A stretch of DNA of 64,000 bases, from assembly GCF_021202945.1 (NCBI RefSeq), contig NZ_JAJOYR010000001.1, positions 2,461,543-2,525,542 on the forward strand, read 5' to 3'. This DNA is from Stenotrophomonas sp. SY1 (GTDB taxonomy: Bacteria; Pseudomonadota; Gammaproteobacteria; Xanthomonadales; Xanthomonadaceae). Of the stretch, positions 5,277 to 62,697 are shown piece by piece; position 1 is the stretch's first letter; the number at the start of each line of letters is the position of its first letter. The notes beneath the pieces were generated by a model. That model saw nothing but the letters and a program-made list of their open reading frames with translations, was not told the DNA's origin and did no database searches. The position numbers and the translations under genes are program-made.

Positions 5277-5300
5277 GTAGAAGCGGCCTCGGCCGCGAAG
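5277..5300 (+). repeat. GTAG-type REP element
   Basis: The sequence GTAGAAGCGGCCTCGGCCGC followed by GAAG is a GTAG-headed palindrome (GCGGCC-TC-GGCCGC), 24 bases after parP. The same element recurs at 60761, 60943 (inverted), and in a diverged form at 47534 and 47627. Confidence 0.75.
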
Positions 5301-47533: not shown

Positions 47534-47649
47534 ATAGGAGCGACCTTGGTCGCGAAACTCATGCAACCTGCGGATTCAGAGGCGGGCTGCAACTGCAGTC
47601 ACCCGGGCGGTTCAATCGTTGCCAACTTCGCGACCAAGGTCGGTCCTAC
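47534..47649. repeat. Inverted pair of REP elements (AGGAGCGACC type)
   Basis: ATAGGAGCGACCTTGGTCGC at 47534 and TTCGCGACCAAGGTCGGTCC at 47627 are inverted copies about 70 bases apart, like bipartite REP pairs. They are a diverged version of the GTAGGAGCGGCC element seen at 60761 and 60943. Confidence 0.75.
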
Positions 47650-58508: not shown

Positions 58509-59408
58509 TCACACCACCACCGGCTGGCCTTCCTCCAGCAACACCCGCACTGCTGGCAAATAGCGGCGACTGCAGGGAACCACCTGCCCGTCGTCCATCT
58601 GCAACTGCGCCTCGCCACCGTCCATCGGCTTGATCGATACCAGGTGGCCGAGGTTGATCAACCAGCTGCGATGCACCCGCGCGAAGCACGCCGGGTCCAG
58701 CTTTTCCTCCAGCGCCGCCATGGTGATGCGCAGGGGATAGTCGTGGCCGCGCACGCGCAGGTTGACGTAATTTCCGGCCGCCTGGGCCCATTCGATATCG
58801 GCAGTGGCCACCAGGAAGTCCCGCCCCAGCTTGCGCACCAGCAGCCGCTCTGGGCGCTCCACCGGGTCCAGCGCCGGACCTTCGTCAGGCGCGGCCAGCA
58901 ATTGCACCTCGCCGCGCAGGCGGCGCAACACGAAACGGTAAGCGTGGATGCAGGCCACGATGAGCACGAACGTGCGCACGTCCTTGAGGTACTCGTAGAA
59001 CATCTCGCGCGGCCATGAGCCGACGTCGTAGTGCTCGCCCATCCACCGGTACGCCAGCATGCGCAGCCCGAACATGCCCAGCACATGCACCACCGACATC
59101 GGCACGCTGGCGAGCAGGTACCACGGCAGGCGTCGTCGCCAGGTATCCAGGTGCAGCGGCATGCGCCGGCTGAACCAGACAATGGCGGGCACCAGCACCA
59201 GCAACCACATCAGGCCGCTGGAGAACTCCCAGACCCAGGGCTCCCAGCCCTGTCGCGACGATAGCCCGGCCCGGCGCATGTCCATCCAGCTGGTCAGTGC
59301 ATTGCCGGCGCAGTTGATCGTCACCAGCAGCACCCAGAACAGTATCTCCGCGCTGCGTTGCCATGGCCCGAAGCGCTCCAGCGCATCACGTGCAGGTGTT
59401 CTATCCAT
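58509..59408 (-). CDS. Membrane-anchored LytTR transcriptional regulator
   Basis: A 299-residue protein with four predicted membrane helices (about 20-165) and a C-terminal LytTR DNA-binding domain (about 190-295; ADIEWAQAAGNYVNLRV, RVHRSWLINLGHLVSIKP). There is no receiver domain, so the signal must come through the membrane part. It is divergent from the acyltransferase gene, with only 156 bases between starts, making that gene a plausible target. Confidence 0.85.
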   Translation of the reverse strand: MDRTPARDALERFGPWQRSAEILFWVLLVTINCAGNALTSWMDMRRAGLSSRQGWEPWVWEFSSGLMWLLVLVPAIVWFSRRMPLHLDTWRRRLPWYLLASVPMSVVHVLGMFGLRMLAYRWMGEHYDVGSWPREMFYEYLKDVRTFVLIVACIHAYRFVLRRLRGEVQLLAAPDEGPALDPVERPERLLVRKLGRDFLVATADIEWAQAAGNYVNLRVRGHDYPLRITMAALEEKLDPACFARVHRSWLINLGHLVSIKPMDGGEAQLQMDDGQVVPCSRRYLPAVRVLLEEGQPVVV

Positions 59409-59564
59409 CCGCGCATTCTAGGGGCGCGGGCGGCGAACGCCCCGGCTGTCCATCCCCTTGAAGCCGCCATTCGTCCCTCGGCCGCCACCATCGGCCCCTT
59501 CAACGCCATTTCTCCACACCATTGCGGGCTTGATGAACCGTCCTGTGGAACGGTGGAACCAACG

Positions 59565-60764
59565 ATGCAAAGACGTCACGACCTGGACTGGCTGCGCGTG
59601 ATCGCATTCGCGCTGCTGGTGCTCTATCACGTGGGCATGTACTACGTGAGCTGGGACTGGCATGTAAAAAGTCCGCAGGCGGGCACGGCGCTGGAGCCGT
59701 TCATGCTGCTCACCAGCCCGTGGCGGATGTCGCTGCTGTTCCTGATCTCCGGCGTGGCTACCGCATTCATGCTGCAACGTCCGACGGCGCGCTTCCTGCG
59801 CCGGCGCAGCTGGCAGCTACTGCTGCCGCTGCTGTTCGGCATGCTGGTGATCGTGCCGCCGCAGTCGTACCTCGAAGTGGTCGAGCAACTGCCTGGCGGC
59901 TATGGCGAATCCTACCTGGCCTTCTACGCGCGCTACCTGAGTGCCTATCAAGGCTTCTGCGACAGCGACGGCTGCCTGATCCTGCCCACCTGGAACCACC
60001 TTTGGTTCCTGCCTTATCTGTGGTGCTACACGCTGCTGGCCTGGTTGCTGTGGCGCCTGTTGCCGGCCGCCGGCCTGGCCCGGTTGCGGCAACTGGCAGG
60101 CCGCATCCTGGGCGGTTGGCGCGCGCTGCTCGTCCCGATCGCAATACTGGCGGCCGCCCGCCTGCTGCTGGCCACACGATTCGAGCAGACCCACGCCTTG
60201 ATCGACGACTGGTACAGCCACGCCGAGTACGCAGCGGTGTTCCTGCTCGGCTTTCTTCTGGCTTTCGACGAGCGCTTCTGGGAAAGGCTGCAGCGGTTGC
60301 GCTGGACGTCATTGGTGCTGGCCACCGGCAGCTACGCGGTGCTGATCCACTACTGGTACTTCGCTGGCTACGGCGACGAGCAACCGCTGCCCGAACTACT
60401 GCGCCAGTATCTGCGCGTGGTGTGGGCGATCGACCAATGGTGCGCTACTGCCGCCCTGCTCGGCTTCGCCTACCGCTGGCGCAACGCCGACAGTCCGCTG
60501 CTGCGGTACCTCACGGTCGCCGTGTTCCCGGTCTACATCCTGCATCAGACGGTGATCGTGGTGCTGGCCCATGCGTTGAAGCCGCTGGGCATCCCCGCGA
60601 CGCTGGAGGCGATGCTGTTGATCGCGGCTACCTTCGCACTGTGCTTCGCTGCCTATGCGTTGATCCGCCGCAGTCGTCTGCTGCGACCGCCGTTTGGCCT
60701 GCGCTCGGAATCGGTGCCTAATCCGCCGTTGACCACCACCGCCAGCGAGGCCAGCCAGACGTAG
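59565..60764 (+). CDS. Membrane acyltransferase (acyltransferase_3 / OpgC-like)
   Basis: A 399-residue polytopic protein with about ten hydrophobic segments. The family motif LDWLRVIAFALLVLYHVGMY holds the likely catalytic His, and MSLLFLISGVATAFML is conserved. Such enzymes transfer acyl groups to envelope glycans. The start at 59565 (MQRRHDLDWL) is favoured; longer frames add random sequence. Its TAG stop lies inside the GTAG head of a REP element. Confidence 0.85.
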   Translation: MQRRHDLDWLRVIAFALLVLYHVGMYYVSWDWHVKSPQAGTALEPFMLLTSPWRMSLLFLISGVATAFMLQRPTARFLRRRSWQLLLPLLFGMLVIVPPQSYLEVVEQLPGGYGESYLAFYARYLSAYQGFCDSDGCLILPTWNHLWFLPYLWCYTLLAWLLWRLLPAAGLARLRQLAGRILGGWRALLVPIAILAAARLLLATRFEQTHALIDDWYSHAEYAAVFLLGFLLAFDERFWERLQRLRWTSLVLATGSYAVLIHYWYFAGYGDEQPLPELLRQYLRVVWAIDQWCATAALLGFAYRWRNADSPLLRYLTVAVFPVYILHQTVIVVLAHALKPLGIPATLEAMLLIAATFALCFAAYALIRRSRLLRPPFGLRSESVPNPPLTTTASEASQT

Positions 60765-60967
60765 GAGCGGCCTCGGCCGCGAAGCTATCGCACGTTCAAG
60801 CGGTCGCACCACCTGCCATTGCTGCAAGCCAACTGGTTGGCCGTGCCGAGCATGGCTCGGCACTATCGGGCGTCCTTCAGCAGGAGCGACTGCCGCGAAG
60901 CCACTGCGGTTACGGATGTCAGCATGGCCTGAAGCTGCGGCAGCTTCGCGGCCGAGGCCGCTCCTAC
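60761..60967. repeat. Inverted REP pair with internal REP and hairpin
   Basis: GTAGGAGCGGCCTCGGCCGC at 60761 and its reverse complement ending CTCCTAC at 60967 bracket the whole gap between two convergent genes. Inside are a partial copy (60881-60901, CAGGAGCGACTGCCGCGAAG) and a hairpin GTGCCGAGC-ATG-GCTCGGCAC (60843-60863). The unit probably serves as a bidirectional terminator. Confidence 0.85.
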
Positions 60968-62697
60968 GCCGTTGCGGGCTGACAGTGCTCGATGATCAAC
61001 TGGATGGCCTGGCCACCGCGATAGTCATCGCCGACCAGTCTGTAGGCGATATGCACGCGCGCGCCCGGCTCGGCACCCTTCCATCCGCTGAAATGGATCG
61101 CGTTGATCTTGGCGGAACTGCCGACGGGACGCAGCACGAGCTTCAGATGGCGTTCTTTCAGCACGCGCCATTCCACCACCTCGAACTGGCCATCGAACAG
61201 CGGCTCCGGAAAGCCCTGCCCCCACGGTCCGGCAAGACGCAACGCCTCGGCGTGGCGGAAATCCAGTTCGCCAATGGCAAGCTCGCCATCGCTCAACAAC
61301 TGCTGCTGCAACAGGGCCGGGTCCATGACGGCCAGCACCTGTTGTTCAAACGCAGCTTTGAATGCTTCCAGCTTGGCCAGCGGCAAGCTCAGCCCCGCCG
61401 CCATCGCGTGACCGCCAAACTTCTCCATCAAGCCCGGATGGTTGGCGTTGACCGCCGCCAGCGCATCGCGGATATGGAAGCCCGGAATCGAACGGGCCGA
61501 ACCACGCAACGCTTCACTGCCCGGCTCGGCTGGAGCGAACGCGATCACCGGCCGATGCAGCCTGTCCTTCATCTTCGATGCGACCAACCCGACCACGCCC
61601 GGATGCCACTGCGCATCAAACAGGCAGGCGGCGACAGGGCGCAGCCCGTCATCGGCAAGCAAGGCACGCGACACCGCCAACTCGGCGTCATCGGTCATCA
61701 ACTGCTGCACGGCACGGCGTTCGGCGTTGATCTCTTCCAGCAAGGCGGCGATCTCGCGCGCCTGCGCGGGGTCTTCGGTCAACAACAACTCGATGCCCAG
61801 CGCCATGTCTTCCAGGCGTCCGGCCGCATTGAGGCGCGGCGCCAGGGCAAAACCGATGTCGCTGCCGGTGAGCTTGCCGGCATCGCGGCCACTGGCTTCG
61901 ATCAACGCGCGCAGGCCGACGCAGCCCTTGCCGGCACGCAGCCGACGCAGGCCAGCACCCACCAATGCACGGTTGTTCTCATCCAGTGCGACCAGATCGG
62001 CCACCGTGCCAACGGCCACGAGATCCAGCAGAACCAGCAGGTCCGGCTCGGGTTGTTCGGCAAACACGCCCTGGTCGCGCAGATGCCGGCGCAGCGCCAT
62101 CAGCACGTAGAAAATCACCCCGACACCGGCCAGTGATTTGCTCGGGAACGCATCGCCGTCAACGTTCGGATCGACGATGGCATCGGCCGGCGGCAGCTTC
62201 TCGCCCGGCAGATGGTGGTCGGTCACCAGCACCTGCCAACCCAACGCCTTGGCCGCGTTGACGCCGGCATGACAGGCGATGCCGTGATCCACCGTCACCA
62301 GCAGGTCCGGCTTCAATGCGGCGAGTTCTTCCACCAGCGACGGTGACAGGCCGTAACCATGCACCATGCGATTGGGCACCGCATGCACCACATCGCGCGC
62401 GCCCAGCAGGCGCAGGCCGCGCACGCCGACCGCGCAGGCGGTGGCGCCATCGCAATCGAAATCACCGACGATCAGGATGCGCTTATTGGAAGCAATCGCC
62501 GCAGCCAGCAGCTCGACCGCTGACTGCATGCCGCCCAGCAGTTCAGGCGCGTGCAGCTGACCAAGCTTGGGCTGTGCCTGTGCGGCCGAGCCGGCCCCGC
62601 GCGCGGCGTAGATACGCTGCAGCAATGGCAGGGTCTGCGCATCCCACTGCCCGGCATCGATCACCTCGCGCCGGACAATCTTCAATTGATCACTCAT
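60964..62697 (-). CDS. recJ: Single-stranded-DNA exonuclease RecJ
   Basis: A 577-residue DHH-family 5'-3' exonuclease. Metal-binding motifs are VGDFDCDGATACA, VTVDHGIA and VTDHHLPG, and the DHHA1-type domain has GGHAMAAGLSL. It acts in recombination and mismatch repair. The start at 62697 overlaps the preceding gene by 8 bases. Its TAG stop is part of the GTAG of the adjacent REP element. Confidence 0.95.
   Translation of the reverse strand: MSDQLKIVRREVIDAGQWDAQTLPLLQRIYAARGAGSAAQAQPKLGQLHAPELLGGMQSAVELLAAAIASNKRILIVGDFDCDGATACAVGVRGLRLLGARDVVHAVPNRMVHGYGLSPSLVEELAALKPDLLVTVDHGIACHAGVNAAKALGWQVLVTDHHLPGEKLPPADAIVDPNVDGDAFPSKSLAGVGVIFYVLMALRRHLRDQGVFAEQPEPDLLVLLDLVAVGTVADLVALDENNRALVGAGLRRLRAGKGCVGLRALIEASGRDAGKLTGSDIGFALAPRLNAAGRLEDMALGIELLLTEDPAQAREIAALLEEINAERRAVQQLMTDDAELAVSRALLADDGLRPVAACLFDAQWHPGVVGLVASKMKDRLHRPVIAFAPAEPGSEALRGSARSIPGFHIRDALAAVNANHPGLMEKFGGHAMAAGLSLPLAKLEAFKAAFEQQVLAVMDPALLQQQLLSDGELAIGELDFRHAEALRLAGPWGQGFPEPLFDGQFEVVEWRVLKERHLKLVLRPVGSSAKINAIHFSGWKGAEPGARVHIAYRLVGDDYRGGQAIQLIIEHCQPATA

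Follow-up and report, generated by a model that had tools for sequence, protein, structure and literature searches.

REP elements supply the stop codons of converging acyltransferase and recJ genes in Stenotrophomonas: probable routes to a repeat-owned gene end

When two converging genes both end within the repeats that separate them, the question arises of how those ends came about. The repeats may have inserted at the gene ends, they may have replaced the original stops, or a selected rule may place them at stop codons. Such a case is found in the window analysed here, a stretch of 64,000 nucleotides from Stenotrophomonas sp. SY1, in which an acyltransferase gene on the forward strand meets recJ on the reverse strand with a pair of REP elements between them. 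The acyltransferase open reading frame (ORF) is listed at 59,358–60,764 (+); the Pfam domain Acyl_transf_3 covers its residues 74–433, and the real start probably lies further inside. The recJ gene (60,964–62,697, −), which encodes 577 amino acids from the ATG used, carries the Pfam domains DHH, DHHA1 and RecJ_OB, and its closest named relative is that of Stenotrophomonas sp. ATCM1_4, at 91% identity.

A sequence-only reading of the window had proposed that the GTAG heads of the two REPs provide both stop codons, and the ends of the reading frames, at 60,764 (+) and 60,964 (−), bear this out. The left REP, a GTAG head and a stem-loop, occupies 60,761–60,782 (+); its head, at 60,761–60,764, contains the acyltransferase TAG (60,762–60,764). 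The right REP lies inverted at 60,946–60,967 (−), where its head (60,967–60,964) contains the TAG of recJ (60,966–60,964). Both heads match the REP family with 0 mismatches. The elements lie within the arms of an 88% inverted repeat (60,760–60,801, +, and 60,927–60,968, −) with a spacer of 125 nt. The same reading had the pair filling the gap from end to end, which is correct at both ends of the 199 bp that separate the stops but fails for the inner 125 nt, where at least one more REP-like copy stands in a decayed state (60,879–60,901, +; 74% to the left REP). Also between the REPs is an ATAG-headed palindrome, TGCCGAGCCATGCTCGGCA (60,867–60,843, −), which, read by eye, resembles the REPs of the S. 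maltophilia group.

The core of the family, as seen in the window pair, is a GTAG head followed by GGAGCGGC, a loop and GCCGCGA. The tetranucleotide stands at the 5′ foot of the stem-loop, for which folds show a 5-bp stem and a 4-nt loop. With up to two mismatches, 425 places match in the host genome (218 forward and 207 reverse), compared with nine (5 + 4) for a reversed control, so that there are more than 100 copies. These are mostly extragenic. When same-strand genes were scored, 229 of 252 intact heads had a same-strand gene end in range, and for only five of these heads did the stop lie beyond position +1 (position 0 being the G of the head), with weak scores of 28.7–39.6 and with three of the five in one ORF. 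Many host-genome REPs sit shortly 3′ of genes, and close inverted pairs like that of the window recur elsewhere. The host genome has two Y1_Tnp matches, one of which (C1:2445479-2445796, L392) is flanked on both sides by the same REP family; the other (L391) has no REP copy nearby within four mismatches. By these features of sequence, the window pair belongs to an ordinary REP/RAYT system. Elsewhere in the window, the head of a further REP-like copy (5,277–5,298, +) lies 26 nt past the first base of a TGA stop; two more copies form a degenerate inverted pair (47,534–47,555, +, and 47,649–47,628, −) at 165 and 282 nt from scored same-strand stops. A provisional Pseudomonas REP pattern gave no match in 185 genomes sampled from the class.

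A genome-wide count against chance was one check put forward with the original observation. The host-genome sample comprised 312 distinct heads, 252 with an intact GTAG and 60 without, and genes were called by a codon model trained on 28 window ORFs. For the 229 heads with a gene end in range, the stop begins at +1, within the head itself, in eight cases, and at −8 to 0 in none; a further 17 stops begin at −14 to −9, 11 at −20 to −15, 20 at −30 to −21 and one at +2 to +30. The 48 stops in the 22 positions from −30 to −9 give an expectation of 2.2 per position, which the eight at +1 exceed (Poisson P = 0.0019), while the 60 heads without an intact GTAG had no stop at +1. REP-head stops are therefore commoner than random placement would make them. 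The eight genes are recJ, the acyltransferase gene and those for an MFS transporter, an EptA-like protein, a LacI-type protein, a histidine kinase, a VOC-like protein and a GNAT protein. Two of these labels are our own: Pfam gives Sulfatase for the EptA-like protein and no match for the VOC-like one, which was kept because its orthologues align. One candidate (L237) was dropped as a likely shadow ORF with a low score and no Pfam match, and the GNAT gene (L130), which had been assigned to another frame, was put back by hand, so that the corrected count is again eight.

The same position is occupied in related loci. Among 80 of these, 245 GTAG hairpins include 50 close to a gene end, 23 of them with the stop at +1; 15 were left once eight hits for which another frame scored better over the same stretch had been removed as shadow ORFs. 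The ten ATAG hits at +1 were all shadow ORFs. Raw hits for other head words that can carry a stop at +1 were seven for GTGA, two for GTAA and none for CTAG (0/6) or TTAG (0/6); the zeros of most remaining words provide no control because such words cannot carry a +1 stop. Coincidence, by which REPs are common behind genes and some heads simply fall on stops, would suit the small share of sampled heads concerned (8 of the 252 intact ones) and the many heads that lie 9–30 nt behind stops. Given the excess at +1 in the host genome and the 15 cases left, out of 50 GTAG hairpins, after removal of shadow ORFs, set beside ATAG hits that were shadows throughout, it is a very improbable explanation.

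In a wider set (141 loci, 1482 gene ends), 40 of 142 TAG stops preceded by G have a hairpin immediately behind them, as does one of 71 other TAG stops (Fisher P = 2e-7, although P values from related loci are overstated because orthologues are not independent). The corresponding counts are 6/155 for G-TGA, 35/1010 for other TGA and 5/104 for TAA. Relative to the head, 40 of these stops begin at +1, five at −8 to 0 and 40 at −20 to −9, of which 21 stand at −19 and belong mainly to one orthologous gene. Across the same gene ends, G precedes 142 of 213 TAG stops and 155 of 1165 TGA stops; one guess is that this bias comes from avoidance of CTAG.

The zone just upstream of the heads is conspicuously empty in the host genome, with no stops at −8 to 0 where about 20 would be expected (P = 3e-9). 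This was first read as ribosome avoidance, and it would suit a role in translation control, whereby a hairpin starting at the stop might slow termination and lower or tag the product. Such a role would be analogous to that of E. coli REPs, which, when close to the stop, are reported to stall ribosomes (PMC12306157, in a passage citing Liang et al. 2015). The left flank accounts for most of the empty zone in another way. The base at −1 is T in 63%, C in 33%, G in 3% and A in 1% of the 229 heads, and a preference for pyrimidines extends to about −5; stops at −6 to 0 are mostly barred because the bases they require are rare or impossible in such a flank. This restriction does not reach positions −7 and −8, yet they are empty in the host genome; related loci have three stops at −7. 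In addition, 46-nt RNA folds at the two heads of the window pair are ordinary when compared with shuffles (z = −1.2 and −1.0), and the genes ended by REPs have no evident common function. Translation control is thus an improbable explanation, if slightly less so than coincidence. The pattern of the flank fits a unit that would extend a few bases beyond GTAG. Other REP families, too, often have a characteristic base of their own just before GTAG. TnpA-REP enzymes are reported to cleave at C|T close to the REP, and GTAG is presumed to guide them (PMC8266576).

How the stops came to lie within the heads can be addressed through orthologues, beginning with recJ, whose C-termini in relatives were the other check put forward. 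The protein ends at a common residue in 30 of the 34 loci named Stenotrophomonas, whereas in the window it is two residues longer and ends in PATA, followed by the REP TAG. Two extra residues are also found in L063, with a GTAG hairpin, and in L085 and L086, where no REP was recognised. In L031 the protein is five residues longer: GAA, the sixth codon from the end, replaces the stop of the others, and a REP-like GTAG hairpin follows. The recJ of a Pseudoxanthomonas locus (L088) is nine residues longer and ends in a GTAG hairpin, and in L271 and L324 the gene stops at the usual residue, where a GTAG-headed palindrome stands. Against the Stenotrophomonas majority, then, the window recJ is extended, but Xanthomonas recJ is longer still, ending in PATVTG about two residues past the window's end and without a REP. 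Because this outgroup ends farther on, the end of the window recJ need not be an extension. In many strains of the S. maltophilia group (L037–L040, L042–L049, L090 and L108), recJ is followed directly by another kind of repeat, with core GGGACGGAGGGGAT and inverted copy ATCCCCTCCGT.

When the eight host proteins are compared with most REP-free relatives, five are longer, one (GNAT) is shorter and two are unclear. The kinase is seven residues longer than five of eight orthologues; two others end two and one residues earlier, and one ends at the same residue. In two genomes (G052 and G087) the kinase gene has an intact TGA, with a GTAG REP of the same family 32 and 25 nt downstream, and in a third (G056), where the head reads GTGG, the loop TAA closes the frame. 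The LacI-type protein exceeds by two residues seven of nine orthologues that lack a REP remnant. In three further genomes (G010, G018 and G075) it has the same end, and there the head reads G-, C- and T-TAG, decayed in two of the three while the TAG is retained. The VOC-like protein is 11–12 residues longer than five of six orthologues. The EptA-like protein is five residues longer than the commonest end (7/14), and its G010 copy has a GTAG hairpin of its own three residues earlier. The GNAT protein is 11–12 residues shorter than seven of eight orthologues, and the MFS protein, the end of which is variable, is one residue shorter than six of 12. In L031, the acyltransferase gene stops at a TAG of its own, a GCAG-headed REP follows 12 nt on, and the tail after FGL is three residues shorter, a state that would be consistent with capture.

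Lengths were also tallied by hand over 16 distinct REP-ended cases with a readable end. Ten are longer than their orthologues, namely the host's recJ, LacI-type, kinase, VOC-like and EptA-like genes, the recJ genes of L063 and L088, two more L063 genes and one in L321. Three have the same length (a gene with VIT and DUF2135 domains, one in L048 and the recJ of L271), and three are shorter (the host MFS and GNAT genes and an acyltransferase of the S. maltophilia group). Longer ends thus make up 10 of 16 REP-ended cases and 71 of 751 other ends with a conserved C-terminus (Fisher P = 5e-7), and 9 of 15 if the window recJ is left aside (P = 3e-6), a result that is support and not proof because the two groups were sampled differently. 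The 11 scored copies of the VIT/DUF2135 gene were merged into one case, as were the acyltransferase rows at −1 (L045, L277, L294 and L296). The host-genome cases were added by hand because the 6-bp hairpin rule misses the 5-bp family of the window. The tally leaves out 11 REP-ended genes with a variable C-terminus, and the window acyltransferase, the tail of which is too variable to align, also stands outside it. Among the stops 9–35 nt upstream of a head, there is no bias towards the frame of the REP TAG (22, 20 and 14 of 56).

These comparisons show that several REP-ended proteins pass their usual orthologous end, and that relatives of the kinase gene have the REP behind an intact stop. That original stops were replaced, one of the options first offered, is thereby supported in most readable host-genome cases. 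The longer ends, the kinase relatives with TGA and the absence of frame bias together point to stop loss followed by capture as the commonest route, with gain of a REP at an existing GTAG as a minority route. To this best reading a probability of roughly 0.57 can be attached. REPs would already lie close behind genes, with a TAG in the head. The gene's own stop would then be lost through mutation or small indels, and read-through of a few codons would end at the REP TAG if the frame fits; in another frame, it would end at the loop TAA of GTAA-loop copies. Once captured, the TAG would be retained as the stop of the gene, and the rest of the REP would be free to decay. For the recJ and acyltransferase genes, the order of events is one that we infer. 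GTAA-loop REPs in which the loop gives a TAA stop in the second frame were seen in L369 (the G056 kinase gene) and L113. Capture needs no insertion rule, since upstream stops show no preference for the TAG frame. A selected rule of GTAG placement at stops, as proposed in the sequence-only reading, finds no support in the host genome, where that preference is absent and protein lengths usually differ; nor is there support for frame-biased placement of a selected backup stop.

The minority route, in which the REP is gained at a gene end already reading G-TAG, draws on one gene of the S. maltophilia group, the VIT/DUF2135 gene 3 kb past recJ. Its C-terminus is unchanged: the 11 scored REP-ended copies have the length of all 46–49 REP-free orthologues compared. 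Of the 54 rows of a tree, picked by how the gene ends, 12 carry a REP at the stop and six an empty G-TAG; six more end in some other TAG and 30 in a different stop codon. At least seven changes on well-supported branches are required to explain the REP label, and different REP stem types occur at the one unchanged stop. What separates the tree neighbours L081 and L298 is a 25-bp REP unit, present in L081 exactly at the GTAG stop. In L049 the 25-bp unit has GTAG at both borders, and L291, just outside, is without it. The species pair looks as insertion at an existing GTAG would, and GTAG-directed REP gain may well have occurred there; alternatively, entire alleles may have been exchanged by recombination, or the unit may have been lost between two heads. 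A gapped search for empty sites gave 355 clean indels, 38 of them distinct with a hairpin and nine with GTAG or CTAC at a border, and within it clean indels of a single REP unit occurred at one site only (the pairs L049/L298 and L081/L298). Two earlier empty-site searches had yielded mostly replaced intergenic regions or coding GTAGs. Behind 11,893 (+) in L049, REPs of several families are stacked after one gene, with one block tandemly repeated.

It is therefore worth considering whether REPs are gained at pre-existing GTAGs more generally, a G-TAG stop being such a site and insertions there surviving because the protein stays whole. As the principal explanation this is doubtful, since length is changed at most readable host-genome ends. 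The frequency of hairpins at G-TAG stops relative to other TAG stops agrees with it, but the same excess is expected where the REP supplies the TAG. The VIT/DUF2135 gene, with its differing stem types, its empty G-TAG rows and the 25-bp unit bordered by GTAG, is the example most in its favour; set against this are the whole-allele exchange or loss that may explain those patchy states, and the single clean site in the wider indel search. Other observations speak against capture: insertion into the tail would fit the shorter GNAT protein, and two host-genome genes have a relative with a G-TAG stop and without a recognisable REP (MFS in L348 and EptA-like in L330). The flank is also relevant. T precedes the head in none of the eight host-genome REP-ended cases, whereas about 63% of copies overall have it (Fisher P about 3e-4 on counts rounded from that percentage). 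These cases lack the T-rich left flank, which capture alone fails to explain. Enzymology, as far as the passages of PMC8266576 go, has GTAG as the guide and C|T as the cleavage site. A narrower statement, that some Stenotrophomonas GTAG REPs were gained exactly at a pre-existing GTAG, with a G-TAG stop as a harmless landing site and GTAG as both target and guide, is possible, if still tentative. Insertion at gene ends, also among the options first offered, is accordingly plausible for the VIT/DUF2135 gene, and it does not suit most host-genome ends, which changed length. Stop loss and capture remain the preferred route for the latter.

The window pair is a real, locally neat case of a known REP habit. 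The comparison points to a by-product of REPs that can be measured in proteins, as neighbouring genes gain, lose or shift their last codons. For annotation, it means that some TAG stops in these genomes are repeat-owned. The named filled and empty sites can be used for the question of GTAG as a target, and the spread of REPs is still described as unsettled in the passages drawn on from PMC8266576. For the GTAG REP superfamily, stops supplied by REPs are already in print, in one sentence of Di Nocera et al. 2013 (PMC3733652), a paper that names TAG ‘opal’; the part of it considered here gives neither a chance test nor an orthologue comparison of these stops. Nor did either appear in the literature titles and abstracts searched.

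In its parts, the system resembles those described in passages of PMC2817692 and PMC8266576, where REPs are associated with a tyrosine transposase (RAYT, TnpA-REP, REPtron), as a Y1_Tnp gene is flanked by the same REP family. It also resembles the E. coli REPs that lie within 15 nt behind stops (Liang et al. 2015, as cited in a passage of PMC12306157), in that a hairpin is found near the stop codon. In those E. coli cases, as described there, the REP follows the stop, whereas in Stenotrophomonas the REP head is itself the stop.
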